Positions 33,090-42,301 of a stretch of DNA of 64,000 nt are shown one piece after another (the stretch's first letter is position 1; each line of letters opens with the position of its first letter). Origin of the DNA: Usitatibacter rugosus (GTDB lineage Bacteria > Pseudomonadota > Gammaproteobacteria > Burkholderiales > Usitatibacteraceae); contig NZ_CP053069.1 of NCBI RefSeq assembly GCF_013003965.1, positions 2,263,419 to 2,327,418 on the forward strand, given 5' to 3'. Both the position numbers and the translations under genes were made by a program. The notes beneath the pieces were generated by a model. That model made no database searches. It had not been told where the DNA came from and saw nothing but the letters and a program-made list of their open reading frames with translations.

Positions 33090-34769
33090 CTATGCGGCCT
33101 GGGGCGGTGCGTTCTTCACCTCGCGGCGCAGCACCTTGCCGACGTTGGTCTTCGGGAGCTCCTTCCAGAACTCCACGATCTTGGGAACCTTGTATCCGGT
33201 GAGGTTCTGCTTGCAGTGGTCGAGGATCTGCTGCTTGGTGAGGTCCGGGTCCTTGCGCACCACGGCCACGCGCACCACCTCGCCCGAGCGCTCGTCGGGG
33301 GCGGCCACCGCGCAGACCTCGCGGACACCGGGCAGCATCGCGATCACGTCCTCCACCTCGTTCGGATACACGTTGAATCCGGACACCAGGATCATGTCCT
33401 TCTTCCGGTCGACGATCTTCACGAAGCCCTCGGGCGTCATGAAGCCGATGTCGCCGGTCCGGAAGGCTCCATCCTCCGTCATCACCTTCGCGGTTTCATC
33501 GGGCCGGTTGTAATAGCCCTTCATCACCTGCGGGCCGGCAATGCAGATCTCGCCTGTTTCGCCGAATGGAAGCACGCGCCCGTCGTCGTCGCGGATGGTG
33601 ACGATCGTCGAGGAAATGGGCAGGCCCGCGTAGCCGTTGTACTCCGCGCCCGGGACCATCGGGTTGATGCAGGCGCCGGGGGACGTTTCGGTGAGGCCGT
33701 AGGCCTCCAGCAGCGGCTTGCCCGTCACCTGCTTCCATTTCTCCGCCACCGAGCGCTGCACGGCCATGCCGCCGCCGAGCGACAGTTGCATTTGTGAGAA
33801 CTGCAGCTTGTCGAATCCGGGGGCGTTCAGCAGAGCGTTGAAGAGCGTGTTCACGCCGGTGATGCACGTGAACGGATACTTGGCGAGCTCCTCGACGAAT
33901 TTCGGGATGTCGCGCGGGTTCACGATCAGGATGTTGCGCGCCCCGATCTTCATGAACGTGAGGCAATTCCCGGTGAGCGCGAAGATGTGATACAGCGGCA
34001 GCGCCGTGATGATGATTTCCTGGCCCTCGCGCAGGTCCCCGCCCCACCACGCCGAGGATTGCAGCAGGTTCGCGACGATGTTGCCGTGCGTGAGCATCGC
34101 GCCCTTGGACACACCGGTGGTTCCCCCCGTGTACTGCAGGAAGGCGATGTCGTCGTGCGTGAGCGGCGGTTCGTCCAGCGGCTTGCCGCGGCCCGCGGCG
34201 AGCGCTTCGTTGAAGGCAATGGGATTCGGCAGCGACCACGCCGGCACCATCTTCTTCACGCGCTTCACCACGAAGTTCACGATCGCGCCCTTCGGAAAGC
34301 CCAGCATGTCTCCGAGCTGCGTGGTGACGATGGTCTTCACGCTCGTCTGCGCGACGACTTGCTCCAGCGTCTTCGCGAAGTTCTCGAGGATGACGATGGC
34401 CTCGGCGCCCGAGTCCTTGAGCTGGTGCTCGAGCTCGCGCGGCGTGTAGAGCGGGTTGCAGTTCACCACGACCAGGCCCGCGCGCAGCACCGCGAAGAGC
34501 GCGACCGGGTACTGGAGCAGGTTGGGCATCATGATCGCGACTCGCGATCCGCGCTTGAGGCCGGCGACGTTCTGCAGGTAGGCGGCGAAATCCCGCGACT
34601 GCTGGTCCAGCTCCGCGAAGGAGATCGTGCGGTCCATGCACGTGAAGGCGGGCTTCTGGGCGAAACGCTCGCAGCTCTCGCGGAAGATCTCGCGGATGCT
34701 GCCGTACGAGCCGACGTCGATTTCGGCCGGCACGCCGGGGGCGTACGATTTCAGCCAGGGCTTCTCCAT
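33090..34769 (-). CDS. fadD: Long-chain fatty acid-CoA ligase
   Basis: A 559-residue AMP-forming acyl-CoA synthetase. Motifs: [19 protein letters not shown] (ATP loop), [11 protein letters not shown], and the FadD signature [23 protein letters not shown]; the closing Lys sits in [11 protein letters not shown]. The start [18 protein letters not shown] is typical of proteobacterial FadD. It activates fatty acids for beta-oxidation or, in this genome, for the nearby wax-ester and PHA genes. Divergent from a phasin gene across 85 bp. Confidence 0.93.
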
Positions 34770-34854
34770 GCTTCTCCTCGTATCGTTATAGGTGCCGCGG
34801 CTACCGTCGGCAGTGTAACCGTTAGAATTCGCTACCGCACCCATCGGAGGCACC

Positions 34855-35343
34855 ATGGCCACACGCAAGAAGAAGTCGTCCCGCCGCAGCGCTTCGCGCC
34901 CCGCAGACCTCGCCGGCACGTTCGCCGCCTCGGGCCAGAAGATCTGGCTCGCCGGGCTGGGCGCCTACGAGCGCGCCCGCAAGGAAGGCCCGAAGATGTT
35001 CGACATGCTGGTGACCCAGGGCAAGGCGCTGCGCGGCCAGGCCGCCGCGGCCGCCGACCAGGCGCTGAAGAACGTGCGCGCGCAGGCCGAGAGCGCCTCG
35101 TCGCAGGCCGCCGGCAAGTGGGACAAGCTGGAGCAGGTCTTCGAGGACCGCGTCTCGAAAGCCGTCCACAAGCTGGGGGTCGTCACCGGCAAGGACGTGG
35201 ACGCGCTGATGCGCCAGGTGAACGACCTCACCGCGAGCGTGCGCTCGATGTCGGGCAAGCCCGCGGCGAAGAAGGCCAAGCGCCCCGCGGCGAAGAAGGC
35301 GAAGAAAGCGAAGAAGAAGCCGGCCGCGAAGGCGAAGAAGTAG
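34855..35343 (+). CDS. Phasin-like PHA granule-associated protein with basic tail
   Basis: A 162-residue protein. The N-terminal 100 residues are an amphipathic helical phasin domain (KIWLAGLGAYERARKEGPKM), the next 30 a coiled coil (VDALMRQVNDLTASVRSM) and the last 30 a Lys/Ala/Pro-rich, histone-like tail. This is the PhaF/PhaI layout, in which the tail can bind DNA and help granules segregate. Residues KLEQVFEDRVSKAVHKLGVV are paralogous to the phasin at 44606. Its stop codon abuts that of the convergent ACBP gene. Confidence 0.88.
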   Translation: MATRKKKSSRRSASRPADLAGTFAASGQKIWLAGLGAYERARKEGPKMFDMLVTQGKALRGQAAAAADQALKNVRAQAESASSQAAGKWDKLEQVFEDRVSKAVHKLGVVTGKDVDALMRQVNDLTASVRSMSGKPAAKKAKRPAAKKAKKAKKKPAAKAKK

Positions 35344-35665: not shown

Positions 35666-37258
35666 ATGACAATCAAGAGAGAACGCATCTCCGGCGTCGA
35701 CACCGCCTGGCTGCGGATGGAGCACCCCACGAACCTCATGATGATCGTGGGCGTGATGATGTTCGAGGCGAAGCTGGACCTCGAAGCCGTGAAGCGGATC
35801 ATCGCCTCGCGCTTCCTCGCCTATCGCCGCTTCCGCCAGAAGGCCGTCCAGGATGCGACGGGCGCCTGGTGGGAGGAGGACGCGGACTTCGACATCGATT
35901 CCCACGTCCACCGCACCGGGCTGCCGGGCCGCGGAGGCAAGGCCGAGCTCGAGGCCTTCGTGAGCGACCTCGCCTCCACGCCGCTCGATTTCGCCAAGCC
36001 GCTCTGGCAATTCCACGTCGTCGACAACTACCAGGGCGGCAGCGCCCTCGTGATCCGCATCCACCATTGCTACGCGGACGGCATCGCGCTCGTGCAGGTG
36101 CTGCTGTCGCTCACGGCCGGCACGCCCGAAGCCAGCCTCGAAACCGAGACCGAAGAGATCGACACCGCCGACACGGCCGACGCGGACTTCTGGGGCCAGA
36201 TCCTGAAGCCCGTCGCGGGCGCGCTCGAGAACGCGGGGCGCATCGGCAAGGACCTCGCGGGGCAGGCCCGCGCCTTCGCCGCCAATCCGCAGGCGGCGAG
36301 CGACACGCTGCAAGGCGCCCTCGGCAAGGGTCTCGGCTTCGCGGGCGAGATCGCGAAGCTGGCGACCATGGGTCAGGACTCGCAGACGCGCTTCAAGGGA
36401 GCGCTCGGCGTGAGGAAGCGCGTGGCCTGGGCCGATCCCCTGCCCCTCGACGAAGTGAAGGTGATGGGCAAGGCGCTGGGCTGCTCGATCAACGACGTGC
36501 TGCTCTCGATGGTGGCGGGCGCGCTGCGCGACTACCTCGAAGAGCATGGAGACCCCGTCGACGACGTGAACATCCGCGCCGTGGTGCCGGTGAACCTCCG
36601 CCCGGGCGGAGATGGGCACAAGCTCGGCAACCGCTTCGGCCTCGTCTTCCTCGACCTGCCCGTGGGCGTGGACCATCCGCTGGAGCGCCTCTACGAGCTT
36701 CGCCGCCGCATGCGCGAGCTGAAGGGCTCCTACCAGCCGCTGCTCGCCCTCGGCCTGTTGAATGCGGTGGGCTACGGCCCGCGCGTGATCCAGGAGCAGG
36801 TCACGCACCTGCTGGGGCAGAACGCGAGCGCGGTGATGACCAACGTGCCGGGACCGGCGGCGCCGCTCTACTTCGCGGGCGAGCGCATCACCGAGCAGAA
36901 TTTCTGGGTGCCGCAGTCGGGAAGCATCGGCATGGGGGTCTCGATCCTCTCGTACGACGGGCGCATCCAGTTCGGCGTCATCACCGACGTGGGGCTGGTA
37001 CCCGATCCCAACGAGATCGTCGGGCGCTTCGGCGACGAGTACAACAAGCTCATGTGGCTGACCCTGATGAGTCCTTGGGGTGAAAATCAGGAAGAGGAAG
37101 CCCCAGTCACCCAGGTGTCTGGGGCTTCCTCTGGGGAGCACAAGACCCGAGCGAAAGCGAAGGGAACCACGGCGAAGCTGTCAAAAAATTCTCAAGCGGA
37201 GGGTGAGGCGCCCGCTCCCGACGCCGCGCCTATCCCGAAGCGCTTCAGGAACCTCTGA
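35666..37258 (+). CDS. Wax ester synthase / diacylglycerol acyltransferase (WS/DGAT)
   Basis: A 530-residue acyltransferase with the catalytic HHxxxDG motif as HHCYADG near residues 133-139, and the conserved NDVLLSMVAGALRDYL and NVPGPAAPLYFAG blocks. It esterifies fatty alcohols or diacylglycerol with acyl-CoA. The fatty acyl-CoA reductase at 45121 could supply the alcohol. The domain ends near residue 472; about 58 further residues are Glu/Ala/Lys-rich, and their DNA contains a perfect 13-bp hairpin. It overlaps ridA at the 3' end by 14 bp. Confidence 0.92.
   Translation: MTIKRERISGVDTAWLRMEHPTNLMMIVGVMMFEAKLDLEAVKRIIASRFLAYRRFRQKAVQDATGAWWEEDADFDIDSHVHRTGLPGRGGKAELEAFVSDLASTPLDFAKPLWQFHVVDNYQGGSALVIRIHHCYADGIALVQVLLSLTAGTPEASLETETEEIDTADTADADFWGQILKPVAGALENAGRIGKDLAGQARAFAANPQAASDTLQGALGKGLGFAGEIAKLATMGQDSQTRFKGALGVRKRVAWADPLPLDEVKVMGKALGCSINDVLLSMVAGALRDYLEEHGDPVDDVNIRAVVPVNLRPGGDGHKLGNRFGLVFLDLPVGVDHPLERLYELRRRMRELKGSYQPLLALGLLNAVGYGPRVIQEQVTHLLGQNASAVMTNVPGPAAPLYFAGERITEQNFWVPQSGSIGMGVSILSYDGRIQFGVITDVGLVPDPNEIVGRFGDEYNKLMWLTLMSPWGENQEEEAPVTQVSGASSGEHKTRAKAKGTTAKLSKNSQAEGEAPAPDAAPIPKRFRNL
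37094..37131. other. Perfect 13-bp inverted repeat inside the WS/DGAT tail
   Basis: GAGGAAGCCCCAG (37094-37106) pairs exactly with CTGGGGCTTCCTC (37119-37131) across a 12-nt loop. It lies within the coding sequence for the non-conserved tail, near the convergent ridA end. It has terminator-like strength but no T-run. Confidence 0.7.
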
Positions 37259-37628
37259 CCGCCCCGATCGCGTCCATCTCGACGAGATAGCCATAGTGGA
37301 GCTCGGGCACGGGCACCACCGTGCGCGCGGGCTTGTGCCCGCCGAGCATCTCCGCATAGATCGCGTTGAAGGCGGGCCAGTGCTCGATGCCCGCGATATA
37401 CACCGTGGTGCGAAGGATGAGATCGCGTCCGCTTCCCGCCGCATCCAGCACCGCGATCACGTTCGCGATCACCTGCCGCGCCTGCGCCTCGAAGGTCTCG
37501 AGCATTCCGTCCGGCTGGCCCGGGACCAGCGGCAATTGCCCCGCCACATACACCACGCCCGCATGGATGATCGCCTGCGAATAATGGCCGCGCGCGAGGG
37601 GCGCCGACTCCGTCGATATCGAGTGCAT
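37245..37628 (-). CDS. RidA family protein
   Basis: A 127-residue member of the RidA/YjgF/UK114 enamine/imine deaminase family. Motifs: YSQAIIHAGVVYVAGQLPLVPG and ARTVVPVPELHYGYLVEMDAIG, with the Arg of the active site in KPARTVVPV. It probably acts on reactive enamines from PLP enzymes; here the last block has HYGYLVEMD rather than the strict PLVEIE pattern, so it may be one of the other Rid subgroups. ATG at 37628 begins the conserved part. It is divergent from the DUF1800 operon. Confidence 0.85.
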   Translation of the reverse strand: MHSISTESAPLARGHYSQAIIHAGVVYVAGQLPLVPGQPDGMLETFEAQARQVIANVIAVLDAAGSGRDLILRTTVYIAGIEHWPAFNAIYAEMLGGHKPARTVVPVPELHYGYLVEMDAIGAVRGS

Positions 37629-37656
37629 TTCGAACTCCTTCGTGGGACTCCGTGCC

Positions 37657-37760
37657 CTGTAGCTGTAGGACGACACTGACAAGTGCTTGATCCGACAGGG
37701 CTTCACGCGAACCGCCTGAAAGCGCTGTAGCTGAGCGGCGACACATGGCGTTTGTGTCGC
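37657..37760. promoter_or_regulatory. Upstream activator-like repeats ahead of the sigma-54 promoter
   Basis: Two 20-bp direct repeats, CTGTAGCTGTAGGACGACAC (37657-37676) and CTGTAGCTGAGCGGCGACAC (37725-37744), match at 16 of 20 positions and are 68 bp apart. The second overlaps an inverted repeat, GCGACACA/TGTGTCGC (37738-37745, 37753-37760). They lie about 65-170 bp upstream of the predicted transcription start, the usual place for enhancer-binding-protein sites. Confidence 0.5.
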
Positions 37761-37797
37761 TTGCGGAAATTCGTTGCACATCAACACGTTGATGCAG

Positions 37798-37813
37798 TGG
37801 CACCGAAGTTGCA
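37798..37813 (+). promoter_or_regulatory. Sigma-54 (RpoN) promoter
   Basis: TGGCACCGAAGTTGCA matches the -24/-12 consensus TGGCAC-N5-TTGCW with exact spacing. Transcription would start near 37824, giving a 26-nt leader with GGGAG before the GTG start of the DUF1800 gene. Confidence 0.78.
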
Positions 37814-37849
37814 GTAAGCCCGGCGACCACGACCCTCTGGGAGAATAAC

Positions 37850-40800
37850 GTGAACGCCCAACAACAGTCCCCGCGCCGGCGCCTCGCCGGTTTCGACAAA
37901 CTCATCGCGCTGTTCGCGCTGCTCGTCGCATTGTTCACGAGCCCGCTCGCGAGCGCCGCCAACTACACCGACATCTGGTGGAACTCGGCCGAATCCGGCT
38001 GGGGCGTCACGCTCACGCACCACAACGACAAGCTCTTCGGCGTCTGGTACATCTACGACTCCGCGGGCAAGCCGTACTGGGTCGTGATGTCCGACGGCGT
38101 GTTCTCGAACGAGGGCCGCACCTTCACGGGCTCCATCCACACGACGCGCGGTCCCTCCTACCGCGAAGCGATCTTCCGCTCGCAGAACGTCTCGACCCGC
38201 CAGGTGGGCACGGCGAAGATCGACTTCGACGCGGATGAAGAAAACGCGACCGCGACGTACACGATCGACGGCATGACGTCGACCAAGCGCATCACGCGCC
38301 AGGCCTACGGCATCGCGCCCACCAACTTCGGCGTCGACCACAGCGACATGTGGTGGGACGACAAGGAGTCCGGCTGGGGCCTTTCCGTGAGCCACCACGG
38401 GGACAACATCTTCGCGGTCTGGTACACGTACGGCGAGGACGGCAAGCCGCTGTGGGTCGTGATGCCGGGTGGCGTGCTCAACGGCAATACCTTCACCGGC
38501 ACCATGTACACGACGACCGGCTCGCCCTACATGGCCGGCTTCGACGCGAAGCAGACGCAGGTGACGCCGGTCGGAACGGCGAAGATCACCTTCAACGGCA
38601 CGCAGGGTCTCTTCGAAAGCGACTTCAAGGGCTTCCAGCAGTTCAAGCAGATCAAGCGCCTCGCCTTCGGCAAGGAATCCTCCAACAAGAAGCCCACGAT
38701 CCAGCTCGCGGCCACGGCCGGCGCAAGCCCGCTCGTCGCTCCGGCCACCGTGACGCTCAAGGCGACCGCGGCCGACTCCGACGGCACCGTCTCGAAAGTG
38801 AGCTTCTTCCAGGGCTGCAACATGATCGGCGCCGACTCGGCCGCGCCGTACGAATTCACGGTCTCGAACCTGCCCGCGGGCAAGTACTACTTCTCCGCGC
38901 GCGTGAGCGACGACAAGGGCGGCACGGCGCTCGCCTCGACGCAGATGATCGAGGTGAAGTCCGGCACCGGGGGAGGCACCCCCGGAGGCGGTGGTGGCGG
39001 CGGCAGCGGCACGAACAAGGCGCCGACCGTCTCGATCACCGCACCGGTGGCCAACGCGCAGTTCGCGCAGGGCGCCAGCATCACGATCGTCGCCACGGCG
39101 GCGGATAGCGACGGCACGGTCGCCAAGGTGGAATTCCTCGCCGGAGCCACGAAGGTGGGCGAGGCTCTCGCCTCGCCGTGGCAGGTGACCTGGTCGGCCG
39201 TTCCCGCGGGCGCCTACAGCCTCACGGCGGTGGCGACCGACGACAAGGGTGCGACCAAGACCTCGAGCGCGATCAGCGTCACGGTGATCCCGCCGGCGAT
39301 CGTCGTCGACGCGGCCACGAAGGACGCGGCCCGCTTCCTCACGCAGGCGACCTTCGGCATCAAGAGCATCGCCGAGATCGACGCCCTCAAGTCGCAGGGC
39401 TACGAGGGCTGGCTCAACCAGCAGTTCGCGCTGGGCTGGAGCTCGCATGTCGGCTACGTCGACCTGCGCGTGGCGGTCAACGAGAAGCCCGACGAGGAGC
39501 GCGCCTACGAGGCGATCTGGCAACAATGGCTCCTCGACAACGGCCAGCTTCGCGCCCGCATGGCCTTCGCGCTCTCCGAGATCTTCGTGATCTCGAACAT
39601 CGCGCCGGACCTGGACACGTACGCGATGGCCTCGTACATGGACATGCTGAACAAGAACGCCTTCGGCAACTACCGCCAGCTCCTGGAGGACGTGACGCTG
39701 CATCCGGCCATGGGCTACTACCTCAACATGATCGGCAGCAAGAAGGCCGACCCGGCGAAGGGCACGCACCCGAACGAGAACTTCGCGCGCGAGGTGATGC
39801 AGCTCTTCTCGATCGGCCTCTACAAGCTGAACGCCGACGGCACCCGCGTGATCGAGGGCGGGCTTCCGGTCAACACCTATGACCAGACGGTGATCGGCGG
39901 GATGGCGGCCGCGTTCACGGGATGGAACTTCGCGGGCAACGACACCAGCAACGCCGCGATCTTCAACCCGGCCAAGGAGAACTGGCGCGACCCGATGGTG
40001 GCGTGGGAGATGTGGCACGACACCAACGCGAAGACGATCTTCAACGGCATCGTGATCCCGGCGGGCGGCAACGCGCGCGGCGACATGAAGGCCGTCCTGG
40101 ACGCGCTCGCCAACCACCCGAACGTGGGACCGTTCGTCGGGCGCGAGCTGATCCAGCGCTTCGTCACCTCCAACCCGAGCCCGGCCTACATCGGGCGCGT
40201 GGCGGCGGCGTTCAACAACAACGGCTCGGGCGTCCGCGGCGACCTGCGCGCGACGCTGCGCGCGGTGCTGATGGACCCGGAGGCGCGGGACGTGAACAAG
40301 GCCGCGACCGACCCGACGTTTGGCAAGCAGCGCGAGCCCGTGATCCGCTTCGCGAACTTCCTGCGCGGCCTGAACGCCACGAGCCCGTCGGGACGCAACA
40401 AGATCTGGTACCTGGACAGCGCCGACGAGGGGCTGAACCAGAGCCCGCTCCTCTCCCCGAGCGTCTTCAACTTCTTCTCGCCGAACTACCGGCAGCCGGG
40501 ACCCCTGTCCGCCGCGAACCTGGTCGCGCCGGAGTTCCAGATCACCACCGAGACGAGCATGGTGGGCGGCCTCAACTTCTTCTCGAAGCTGGTGAAGAAC
40601 GGCTCCTACGGCAGCGGCGACACCAAGCTCACGATGAATCTCGCCGAGCTGAACGCGCTGGCCAACACGCCGGGGGCGCTGGCCGATCGCCTGAGCCTGC
40701 TGTTCATGAACGGGATGATGTCCGAGGGGCTCCGCAGCACGATCGTGAGCACGCTGGGCGCCATGCCGGCGATGAAGACCAACGACACGACGGTCACCGA

Positions 40801-40861
40801 CCGGGTAAGGGCGGCGCTGATCCTGGTCTCGCTCTCGCCCGACTTCGTGATCCAGAAATAA
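37850..40861 (+). CDS. Secreted multidomain DUF1800 protein with Ig-like domains
   Basis: A 1003-residue exported protein; GTG start preceded by GGGAG. Signal peptide to about residue 34 (LASAAN). Residues 37-280 hold two copies of a module marked IWWNSAESGWGVTLTHH and MWWDDKESGWGLSVSHH, each followed by FxVWYxYxxxGKPxWVVM. Then come a bacterial Ig-like domain (281-368), a Gly-rich linker, a second Ig-like domain (389-478) and the DUF1800 domain (about 490-1003; RARMAFALSEIFVIS, NFAREVMQLFSIGLY). DUF1800 and DUF1501 genes are nearly always paired; function unknown. Confidence 0.88.
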   Translation: MNAQQQSPRRRLAGFDKLIALFALLVALFTSPLASAANYTDIWWNSAESGWGVTLTHHNDKLFGVWYIYDSAGKPYWVVMSDGVFSNEGRTFTGSIHTTRGPSYREAIFRSQNVSTRQVGTAKIDFDADEENATATYTIDGMTSTKRITRQAYGIAPTNFGVDHSDMWWDDKESGWGLSVSHHGDNIFAVWYTYGEDGKPLWVVMPGGVLNGNTFTGTMYTTTGSPYMAGFDAKQTQVTPVGTAKITFNGTQGLFESDFKGFQQFKQIKRLAFGKESSNKKPTIQLAATAGASPLVAPATVTLKATAADSDGTVSKVSFFQGCNMIGADSAAPYEFTVSNLPAGKYYFSARVSDDKGGTALASTQMIEVKSGTGGGTPGGGGGGGSGTNKAPTVSITAPVANAQFAQGASITIVATAADSDGTVAKVEFLAGATKVGEALASPWQVTWSAVPAGAYSLTAVATDDKGATKTSSAISVTVIPPAIVVDAATKDAARFLTQATFGIKSIAEIDALKSQGYEGWLNQQFALGWSSHVGYVDLRVAVNEKPDEERAYEAIWQQWLLDNGQLRARMAFALSEIFVISNIAPDLDTYAMASYMDMLNKNAFGNYRQLLEDVTLHPAMGYYLNMIGSKKADPAKGTHPNENFAREVMQLFSIGLYKLNADGTRVIEGGLPVNTYDQTVIGGMAAAFTGWNFAGNDTSNAAIFNPAKENWRDPMVAWEMWHDTNAKTIFNGIVIPAGGNARGDMKAVLDALANHPNVGPFVGRELIQRFVTSNPSPAYIGRVAAAFNNNGSGVRGDLRATLRAVLMDPEARDVNKAATDPTFGKQREPVIRFANFLRGLNATSPSGRNKIWYLDSADEGLNQSPLLSPSVFNFFSPNYRQPGPLSAANLVAPEFQITTETSMVGGLNFFSKLVKNGSYGSGDTKLTMNLAELNALANTPGALADRLSLLFMNGMMSEGLRSTIVSTLGAMPAMKTNDTTVTDRVRAALILVSLSPDFVIQK

Positions 40862-40872
40862 GGGAGGACAAC

Positions 40873-42252
40873 ATGACGAACCGCAGAGACTTCCTCAAGA
40901 AACTCGGCACCGCGGGCATCGGTGTCGGCGGCCTGGGCGCCTGGAGCGACCTTCAACGCATCGCTGCGGCCGCGAGCCTGGAGCCGAGCCCCAAGGCCGC
41001 GGGCGAGGACTACCGGGCGATGGTGTGCGTCTTCCTGTTCGGCGGGAACGACGCCAACAACATGGTCATACCCACGTCGACGACCGAGTACCAGCAGTAC
41101 GCCACGGGCCGCACGCCCACGCTGGCGCTGCCGCTGAACTCGCTGCGCGCCCTCAACGTGTCGAACACGCCCGGGCGCACCTTCGGGCTGCACAACTCGA
41201 TGACGGGCCTCCAGGGCGTGTTCAACGCGGGCAAGGCGGCCGTGGTGGCCAACGTGGGCCCGCTGCTGGCTCCGACGTCGCGGGCCGACCTGCAGGCGCG
41301 CCGCGTGCCGATCCCGCAGGACCTCTACTCGCACAGCGACCAGCAGGCGCAGTGGCAGAGCTCGATCTCCGACGGCGCTCCGCGCTCCGGATGGGGCGGG
41401 CGCGTGGGCGACCTGATGAAGGATGCCAACGGCACCAACAACAGCTCCACGCTGATCTCGGTGTCGGGCAACAACCTCTTCGAGGTCGGCACCACGCTCA
41501 CCTCGTTCAAGGTCTCGCCCGGCAACCATTTCGGATTCGACTTCTACAAGGGCGCCTCGTCGAACGACGCCCTGTCGAAGGGCATCACGGACCTGCTGGG
41601 GCTGCCGAGCGCCAACCTGTTCGACGGCGCGTGGAAGGACGTCATCCACCGCGCGATCCAGAACCAGCAGGTGCTGGCCTCGGCGCTGGCCGCCGTGCCC
41701 CCGTTCACCACGGTGTTTCCCAATACGGGGCTCGGCAACCAGATGCAGATGATCGCGCGCCTCGTGTCGGTGCGGGCGGCGCTGGGCCTGAAGCGCCAGG
41801 TGTTCTTCGCCTCCATCGGCGGCTTCGATACGCATGGCGACGAGCAGATCGGCCGCCAGTCGGAGCTGCTGGGCGAGGTGAGCAACGCCCTCACCGCCCT
41901 CTACAACGCGACCGTGGAGCTGAACTGCTCCGACCTGGTGACGAGCTTCACCGCCTCGGACTTCAACCGCACCTTCCCCTCCAACGGCAAGGGGTCCGAT
42001 CACGCGTGGGGCAGCCACCACGTCGTCGTGGGCGGCGCCGTGCAGGGCGGGAAGATGTACGGCACGTTCCCGACGCTGGTGAAGGGCGGGCCGGACGACA
42101 CGGGCGGCGGCGGGCTGTGGATCCCCACGACGTCGGTGGACCAGTACGGCGCCACGCTCGCTCGCTGGTTCGGCGTGGACGTGGGCGGGGTCAACACGAT
42201 CTTCCCGAACCTGGCCCGCTTCCCGGCGGCCAACCTGGGATTCCTGGGGTAG
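40873..42252 (+). CDS. Tat-exported DUF1501 protein
   Basis: A 459-residue protein with a twin-arginine signal (TNRRDFLKKLGTAGIGVGG). The DUF1501 core has FLFGGNDANNMVIP near the start, IGGFDTHGDE and DFNRTFPSNGKGSDHAWGSHH, resembling the sulfatase/alkaline phosphatase-like fold with Asp/His metal residues. It follows the DUF1800 gene by 11 nt with a GGGAGGA ribosome site. The pair likely acts in the periplasm or on the surface; partners and substrate are unknown. A strong terminator follows. Confidence 0.9.
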   Translation: MTNRRDFLKKLGTAGIGVGGLGAWSDLQRIAAAASLEPSPKAAGEDYRAMVCVFLFGGNDANNMVIPTSTTEYQQYATGRTPTLALPLNSLRALNVSNTPGRTFGLHNSMTGLQGVFNAGKAAVVANVGPLLAPTSRADLQARRVPIPQDLYSHSDQQAQWQSSISDGAPRSGWGGRVGDLMKDANGTNNSSTLISVSGNNLFEVGTTLTSFKVSPGNHFGFDFYKGASSNDALSKGITDLLGLPSANLFDGAWKDVIHRAIQNQQVLASALAAVPPFTTVFPNTGLGNQMQMIARLVSVRAALGLKRQVFFASIGGFDTHGDEQIGRQSELLGEVSNALTALYNATVELNCSDLVTSFTASDFNRTFPSNGKGSDHAWGSHHVVVGGAVQGGKMYGTFPTLVKGGPDDTGGGGLWIPTTSVDQYGATLARWFGVDVGGVNTIFPNLARFPAANLGFLG

Positions 42253-42273: not shown

Positions 42274-42301
42274 GAAACGGGCCGCGCTTGCGGCCCGTTT
42301 C
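42274..42301 (+). terminator. Terminator between DUF1501 and SWIB genes
   Basis: A perfect 12-bp stem, GAAACGGGCCGC with GCGGCCCGTTTC, and a 4-nt loop. It is flanked by A-rich (AAAAG) and T-ending sequence, so it can work for both convergent genes. Confidence 0.8.

Follow-up and report, generated by a model that had tools for sequence, protein, structure and literature searches.

It was found that the region upstream of a DUF1800 gene in Usitatibacter rugosus is very likely a GlrR-activated, sigma-54-dependent promoter of a two-gene DUF1800-DUF1501 operon. The analyzed DNA (the window) is a stretch of 64 kb corresponding to positions 2263419-2327418 of a 4.56-Mb single-contig genome, and its relevant features are collected in Table 1. 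At the level of sequence comparison, I established the predicted promoter, its putative upstream sites, their fixed geometry and conservation, the presence of GlrR with GlrK-like and QseG-like genes, and the sharing of the sites with a promoter located beside glrR. Given the matrix and composite-pattern results described below, the region is best read as a promoter that GlrR, a cell-envelope stress regulator, activates with sigma-54 and help from IHF, and that is tied to envelope homeostasis in these Usitatibacter-like soil bacteria rather than to nitrogen or motility. DUF1800 and DUF1501 genes occur as pairs across many bacteria, and no role is known for either. Among the papers searched, none mentions DUF1800 together with RpoN.

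Table 1. Features of the DUF1800-DUF1501 operon and its upstream region (positions in the window)
Feature	Position	Strand	Basis or remark
ridA, RidA-family gene (Ribonuc_L-PSP), divergent neighbour	37245..37628	-	ATG preceded by AAGGAG
Distal upstream activating site TGTAGCTGTAGGACGACA (TGT-N12-ACA)	37658..37675	.	14.4 bits with independent GlrR matrix; at -140
Proximal upstream activating site TGTAGCTGAGCGGCGACA (TGT-N12-ACA)	37726..37743	.	16.2 bits with GlrR matrix
8-7-8 inverted repeat GCGACACA/TGTGTCGC	37738..37760	.	Real, not conserved
IHF-like element CATCAACACGTTG	37779..37791	+	8/9 fixed positions of WATCAANNNNTTR; presumed IHF site
-24/-12 sigma-54 promoter TGGCACCGAAGTTGCA (TGGCAC-N5-TTGCA)	37798..37813	+	Consensus match and conservation in relatives
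Predicted transcription start	37824	+	From sigma-54 promoter geometry, about 12 nt past the GC of the -12 element
Ribosome-binding site GGGAG	37839..37843	+	Sequence
DUF1800 gene (GTG start), exported protein	37850..40861	+	PF08811, E 3e-84
DUF1501 gene, Tat-type exported protein (RRDFLKK)	40873..42252	+	PF07394, E 6e-26; Tat-signal model match
Perfect hairpin AAACGGGCCGC-GCTT-GCGGCCCGTTT closing the two-gene operon	42275..42300	+	Terminator-like, short T run

An initial annotation had described an RpoN consensus with exact spacing, and this was borne out; TGGCACCGAAGTTGCA matches the consensus at 11/11 positions, with GG and GC ten bases apart (GG-N10-GC). It is the sole exact match in the window. 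Since two matches with at most one mismatch were found there against 0.79 expected, the -24/-12 motif by itself is only mildly surprising. Genome-wide, six exact matches were found (two with the reversed control), and RpoN is encoded in the genome. The expected start lies 26 nt ahead of the GTG codon and is followed by a ribosome-binding site, in agreement with the annotation. Two 20-bp direct repeats, 37657-37676 and 37725-37744 (in a longer form, 37654-37676/37722-37744), lie to within a base where they had been reported and are indeed identical at 16/20 positions. When the intergenic region was shuffled, about 1% of the shuffles gave a repeat pair of this quality and about 4% a perfect 8-bp inverted repeat. 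These elements are singly only mildly unusual; the case rests on comparison with relatives.

In several genera of the family, DUF1800 orthologs are immediately preceded by sites such as TGGCACCGAAGTTGCA, TGGCACTGAAGTTGCA, TGGCATCAAAGTTGCC, and TGGCACACCGATTGCA. Thus, the proposal of a sigma-54 promoter for this operon gains support from the retention of the putative -24/-12 site in relatives, and this conservation lifts the predicted site above chance, although the relatives are not independent and the counts overstate the evidence. In three congeners, the best-conserved parts of the ridA-DUF1800 interval are the distal repeat (whose GTAGCTGTAGGACGACA is identical in all three), the -24/-12 element together with flanking sequence, and the ribosome-binding site, while the proximal repeat is partially conserved. 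Among named organisms, Betaproteobacteria bacterium GR16-43 has the closest relative of the DUF1800 gene (72% identity). A -24/-12 site matching at least 9/11 positions was absent upstream of the paralogs of about 45% identity covered by the first scan, and most DUF1800 genes taken from other Burkholderiales are without such a promoter.

Both 20-bp repeats contain TGTA-N10-GACA, that is, TGT-N12-ACA. The published GlrR/QseF site is TGTN12ACA, which acts with IHF at sigma-54 promoters (PMC6075780), and the site has also been given as TGTC-N10-GACA (PMC4987338, PMC8745638). The suggestion that the direct repeats are enhancer sites is supported by this content and by their matrix scores. A distance of 72 bp separates the proximal site from the T of TGGCAC, and this position is kept in most orthologs. 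Measured from the T of TGGC, the best or tied-best TGTC-N10-GACA match falls between -70 and -72 in 9/12 ortholog promoters; two others have it two helical turns farther out, at -91 or -93. When spacers of 2 to 19 between TGTC and GACA were scanned, N10 yielded 13 matches of at least 7/8, and the next best spacing yielded five. The window's two sites reach only 7/8 in this stricter form; they have A at position 4, where 98% of the sites used for training the matrix have C, which counts against GlrR. A third, overlapping TGT-N12-ACA at 37664-37681 scored -4.0 with the matrix and was not counted. The 8-7-8 inverted repeat exists as annotated, but it is an improbable activator site, being unconserved even in the two nearest relatives; it is probably incidental. 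IHF-like elements were found at -18/-19 in 10/12 DUF1800 promoters, with a summed score of 96 against a null maximum of 79 (p 0.065 for the window copy).

The GlrR site matrix was trained on 36 sites from 18 loci beside glrR, and the DUF1800 promoters took no part in it. Since the training sites were chosen as the best TGTC-N10-GACA match near two expected positions, the matrix leans to this consensus. It detected a strong site in 12/12 DUF1800 promoters (p<=0.006 against Markov shuffles), and the L077 promoter, overlooked at first, likewise has a site pair. Among other sigma-54 promoters, a comparable match was found in 2/17, both of them pilA copies of this genome with the match farther upstream; these two matches speak against GlrR. 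I also searched 28 family genomes for a composite pattern of an upstream activating site plus promoter, by which the GlrR regulon was sampled. It gave 25 matches and none in the reversed control. Sixteen lie beside glrR, and seven stand before known orthologs or genes alignable with DUF1800 (L168, L173, L174, L188, L171, L172, and L177, with a modest DUF1800 match of 38% for L172). One is probable (L176, where the contig runs out early and the gene that follows shares the N-terminal family), and one precedes a different exported protein (L189). The promoter link thus extends to a second group of DUF1800 genes, which includes some paralogs scored as negative, or left unreached, in the first scan. 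The annotation had proposed looking for the repeat beside other -24/-12 promoters and for the matching enhancer-binding protein. The element was found beside glrR itself, and the sites fit GlrR, a copy of which this genome encodes.

The genome has seven strong enhancer-binding proteins. One of them (L009) is GlrR: over 425 aa, it is 57% identical to the E. coli protein, and the others show 32-47% identity, the higher values only across the ATPase domain that all have in common. L009 and E. coli GlrR have an identical recognition-helix region, RNRTEFYKLL, although the 628 bits scored by L009 fall short of the 763-bit NCBIfam cut-off for the GlrR equivalog. The glrR gene is adjoined by a GlrK-like kinase gene with HisKA/HATPase domains and by a gene for a 187-aa QseG-like lipoprotein in the QseG position. 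GlrR is present in 12/12 genomes having a DUF1800 ortholog of at least 50% identity and in 20/28 family genomes overall, a co-occurrence with a probability of 0.004 if the genomes were independent, which they are not. A point against GlrR is that in G018, which has a promoter-like copy (L080), no GlrR match was found at E<=1e-120. Some 165-240 nt beyond glrR, nearly all family genomes have a sigma-54 site accompanied by two sites at about -93 and -158. These paired sites resemble TGTC-N10-GACA, mostly at 8/8 in the GlrR loci that reach far enough.

Could another protein act on the same elements? The sigma-54 promoter might be driven by PilR, NtrC, a PrsR-like protein, or L011, L012, or L013, the GlrR likeness being a shared half-site preference. 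The presence of seven candidates, similar TGTCGCC..GGCG elements at two pilA promoters, and the G018 case would allow this, but the element is missing from the tandem pilA promoters of two congeners and from the third pilA of this genome, and the window sites agree with the glrR-side ones in sequence and layout. NtrC sites have a different published consensus. PrsR was considered because of the PEP-CTERM literature; that PrsR/RpoN regulon likewise has a sigma-54 site and a distal activator motif before exported-protein genes, but its motif 1 contains TTTACA (PMC1569441), which is absent from 37629-37849. Neither the DUF1800 nor the DUF1501 protein matched a PEP-CTERM model, and the PrsR control was dropped. 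Control by an activator other than GlrR is unlikely. The conditions originally suggested (nitrogen, motility, or polymer use) were not supported; the putative enhancer sites fit GlrR rather than NtrC, PilR, or PrsR.

The repeats might instead belong to the divergent ridA gene as an operator or a sigma-70 promoter, leaving only the -24/-12 site to DUF1800. The distal copy, 29 bp away from the start of ridA, forms the best-conserved block in the three congeners and was found only beside ridA. However, the proximal copy is in place in a genus without ridA there, in which DUF1800 directly follows the end of a wax-ester-synthase-like gene, and the distal copy too matches the GlrR matrix. It is thus quite doubtful that the repeats concern ridA alone; the distal site, being also within the ridA promoter region, may serve both genes. 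A chance -24/-12 match, with the operon read from an ordinary promoter, is highly improbable; chance would supply about one near match in 64 kb, but the placement of promoter and upstream sites is kept in 12-13 relatives, and the composite pattern is absent from the control.

If GlrR is the activator, an envelope-related signal would cause a GlrK-type kinase to phosphorylate GlrR, which would bind the two TGT-N12-ACA sites. A bend at the IHF-like element, probably made by IHF, would bring GlrR to the RNA polymerase-sigma-54 complex at the -24/-12 site. ATP hydrolysis would then open the promoter, transcription would start near the predicted position, and the DUF1800 and Tat-exported DUF1501 proteins would be made for the envelope.

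The two genes had been called an export operon. Both families were confirmed, but the products are exported proteins and not an export machine. The DUF1800 protein consists of an N-terminal signal-like helix, repeats, Big_7 Ig-like domains, and a C-terminal DUF1800 domain; its structure model is good and confident (pLDDT 81) and had no match in the PDB. The N-terminal YTDIWWN..GWG repeats (window 37850-38800) have about 40 matching places in the genome and mark a large family of exported proteins there. The predicted DUF1501 fold has a low-confidence likeness to the alkaline phosphatase/sulfatase/LtaS superfamily, which is only suggestive since the match is weak (TM about 0.3). DUF1501-DUF1800 pairs beside bacterial chitin synthases share the adjacency of the genes and a Tat-exported DUF1501 protein (PMC5122149). 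Their regulation is not described there, and no chitin synthase is present among the neighbouring genes scanned here. In enterics, GlrR functions in homeostasis of the cell envelope and of amino sugars (PMC6075780, PMC7073468), the amino-sugar link being known in E. coli (PMC7073468). Together, the chitin-synthase neighbourhood of those published pairs, this link, and the DUF1501 likeness suggest possible work on an envelope polymer.

The enterobacterial GlrR/QseF promoters of glmY and rpoE also combine a sigma-54 site, several TGTN12ACA sites, and help from IHF (PMC6075780, PMC4987338), and the GlrK-QseG-GlrR gene set is common to both systems. In contrast, the target here is a DUF1800-DUF1501 protein operon, the first half-site is TGTA, and an RNA-like gene follows glrR instead of preceding glrK as glmY does. 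This candidate small RNA gene, with a predicted RNA of ~134 nt, lies directly after glrR at G000:C1:1318822-1318967 (minus strand; L135, about 5.8-6.0 kb), with relatives in L137-L155. In most loci, it is an element of 111-138 nt after the glrR-side sigma-54 promoter with its paired GlrR-type sites; two loci have only its 3' part. It has an invariant GTGCGCCTT stretch and a terminator, and in seven sequences, 16/40 predicted pairs are changed on both sides in a compensatory manner. It matched no Rfam family at threshold, and a model of it, searched in 399 genomes with strict filters, was found only in Usitatibacteraceae. The small RNAs NcS25 and S17 were considered as relatives, and their papers give no GlrR link. 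I tentatively speculate that GlrR of Usitatibacteraceae might run a small conserved envelope module, consisting of an undescribed glrR-side small RNA (a possible functional counterpart of GlmY) and of DUF1800-DUF1501 operons that would make or fix an amino-sugar-containing envelope polymer. With a named activator whose signalling system has been studied, the role of DUF1800 and DUF1501 becomes testable, and the results show a possible GlrR regulon outside the enterics, including the RNA-like gene beside glrR.

When a stricter composite pattern was searched across 399 genomes of the order, 41 matches were obtained, against none in the control. Among the 30 of these loci that were read (L190-L219), about a third come after genes resembling glrR, and many stand before genes of small exported proteins; judged by eye, and not by profile, these include BON-like, bactofilin-like, glycine-zipper-like, and EF-hand-like sequences. 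The pattern in other Burkholderiales fits an envelope role for GlrR. None of the 30 loci read outside the family matched DUF1800; thus, the DUF1800 link is particular to Usitatibacteraceae. Some of the outside matches, with oxidoreductase-like targets and TGTCA-type sites, may belong to other regulators.

Genes for a wax ester synthase/DGAT (window 35666-37258) and an AMP-binding enzyme (33090-34919) lie beside the operon, and the end of a WS/DGAT-like gene precedes DUF1800 in another genus too. Elsewhere in the genome, an exact sigma-54 site precedes the gene of a 52-aa membrane protein (G000:C1:2258101, L005), a few kb from the two divergent enhancer-binding protein genes L011 and L012. Three tandem pilA-like genes (G000:C1:1494262, 1495034, and 1495824) each have their own sigma-54 site, and GlrR-like elements lie farther upstream of two of them.
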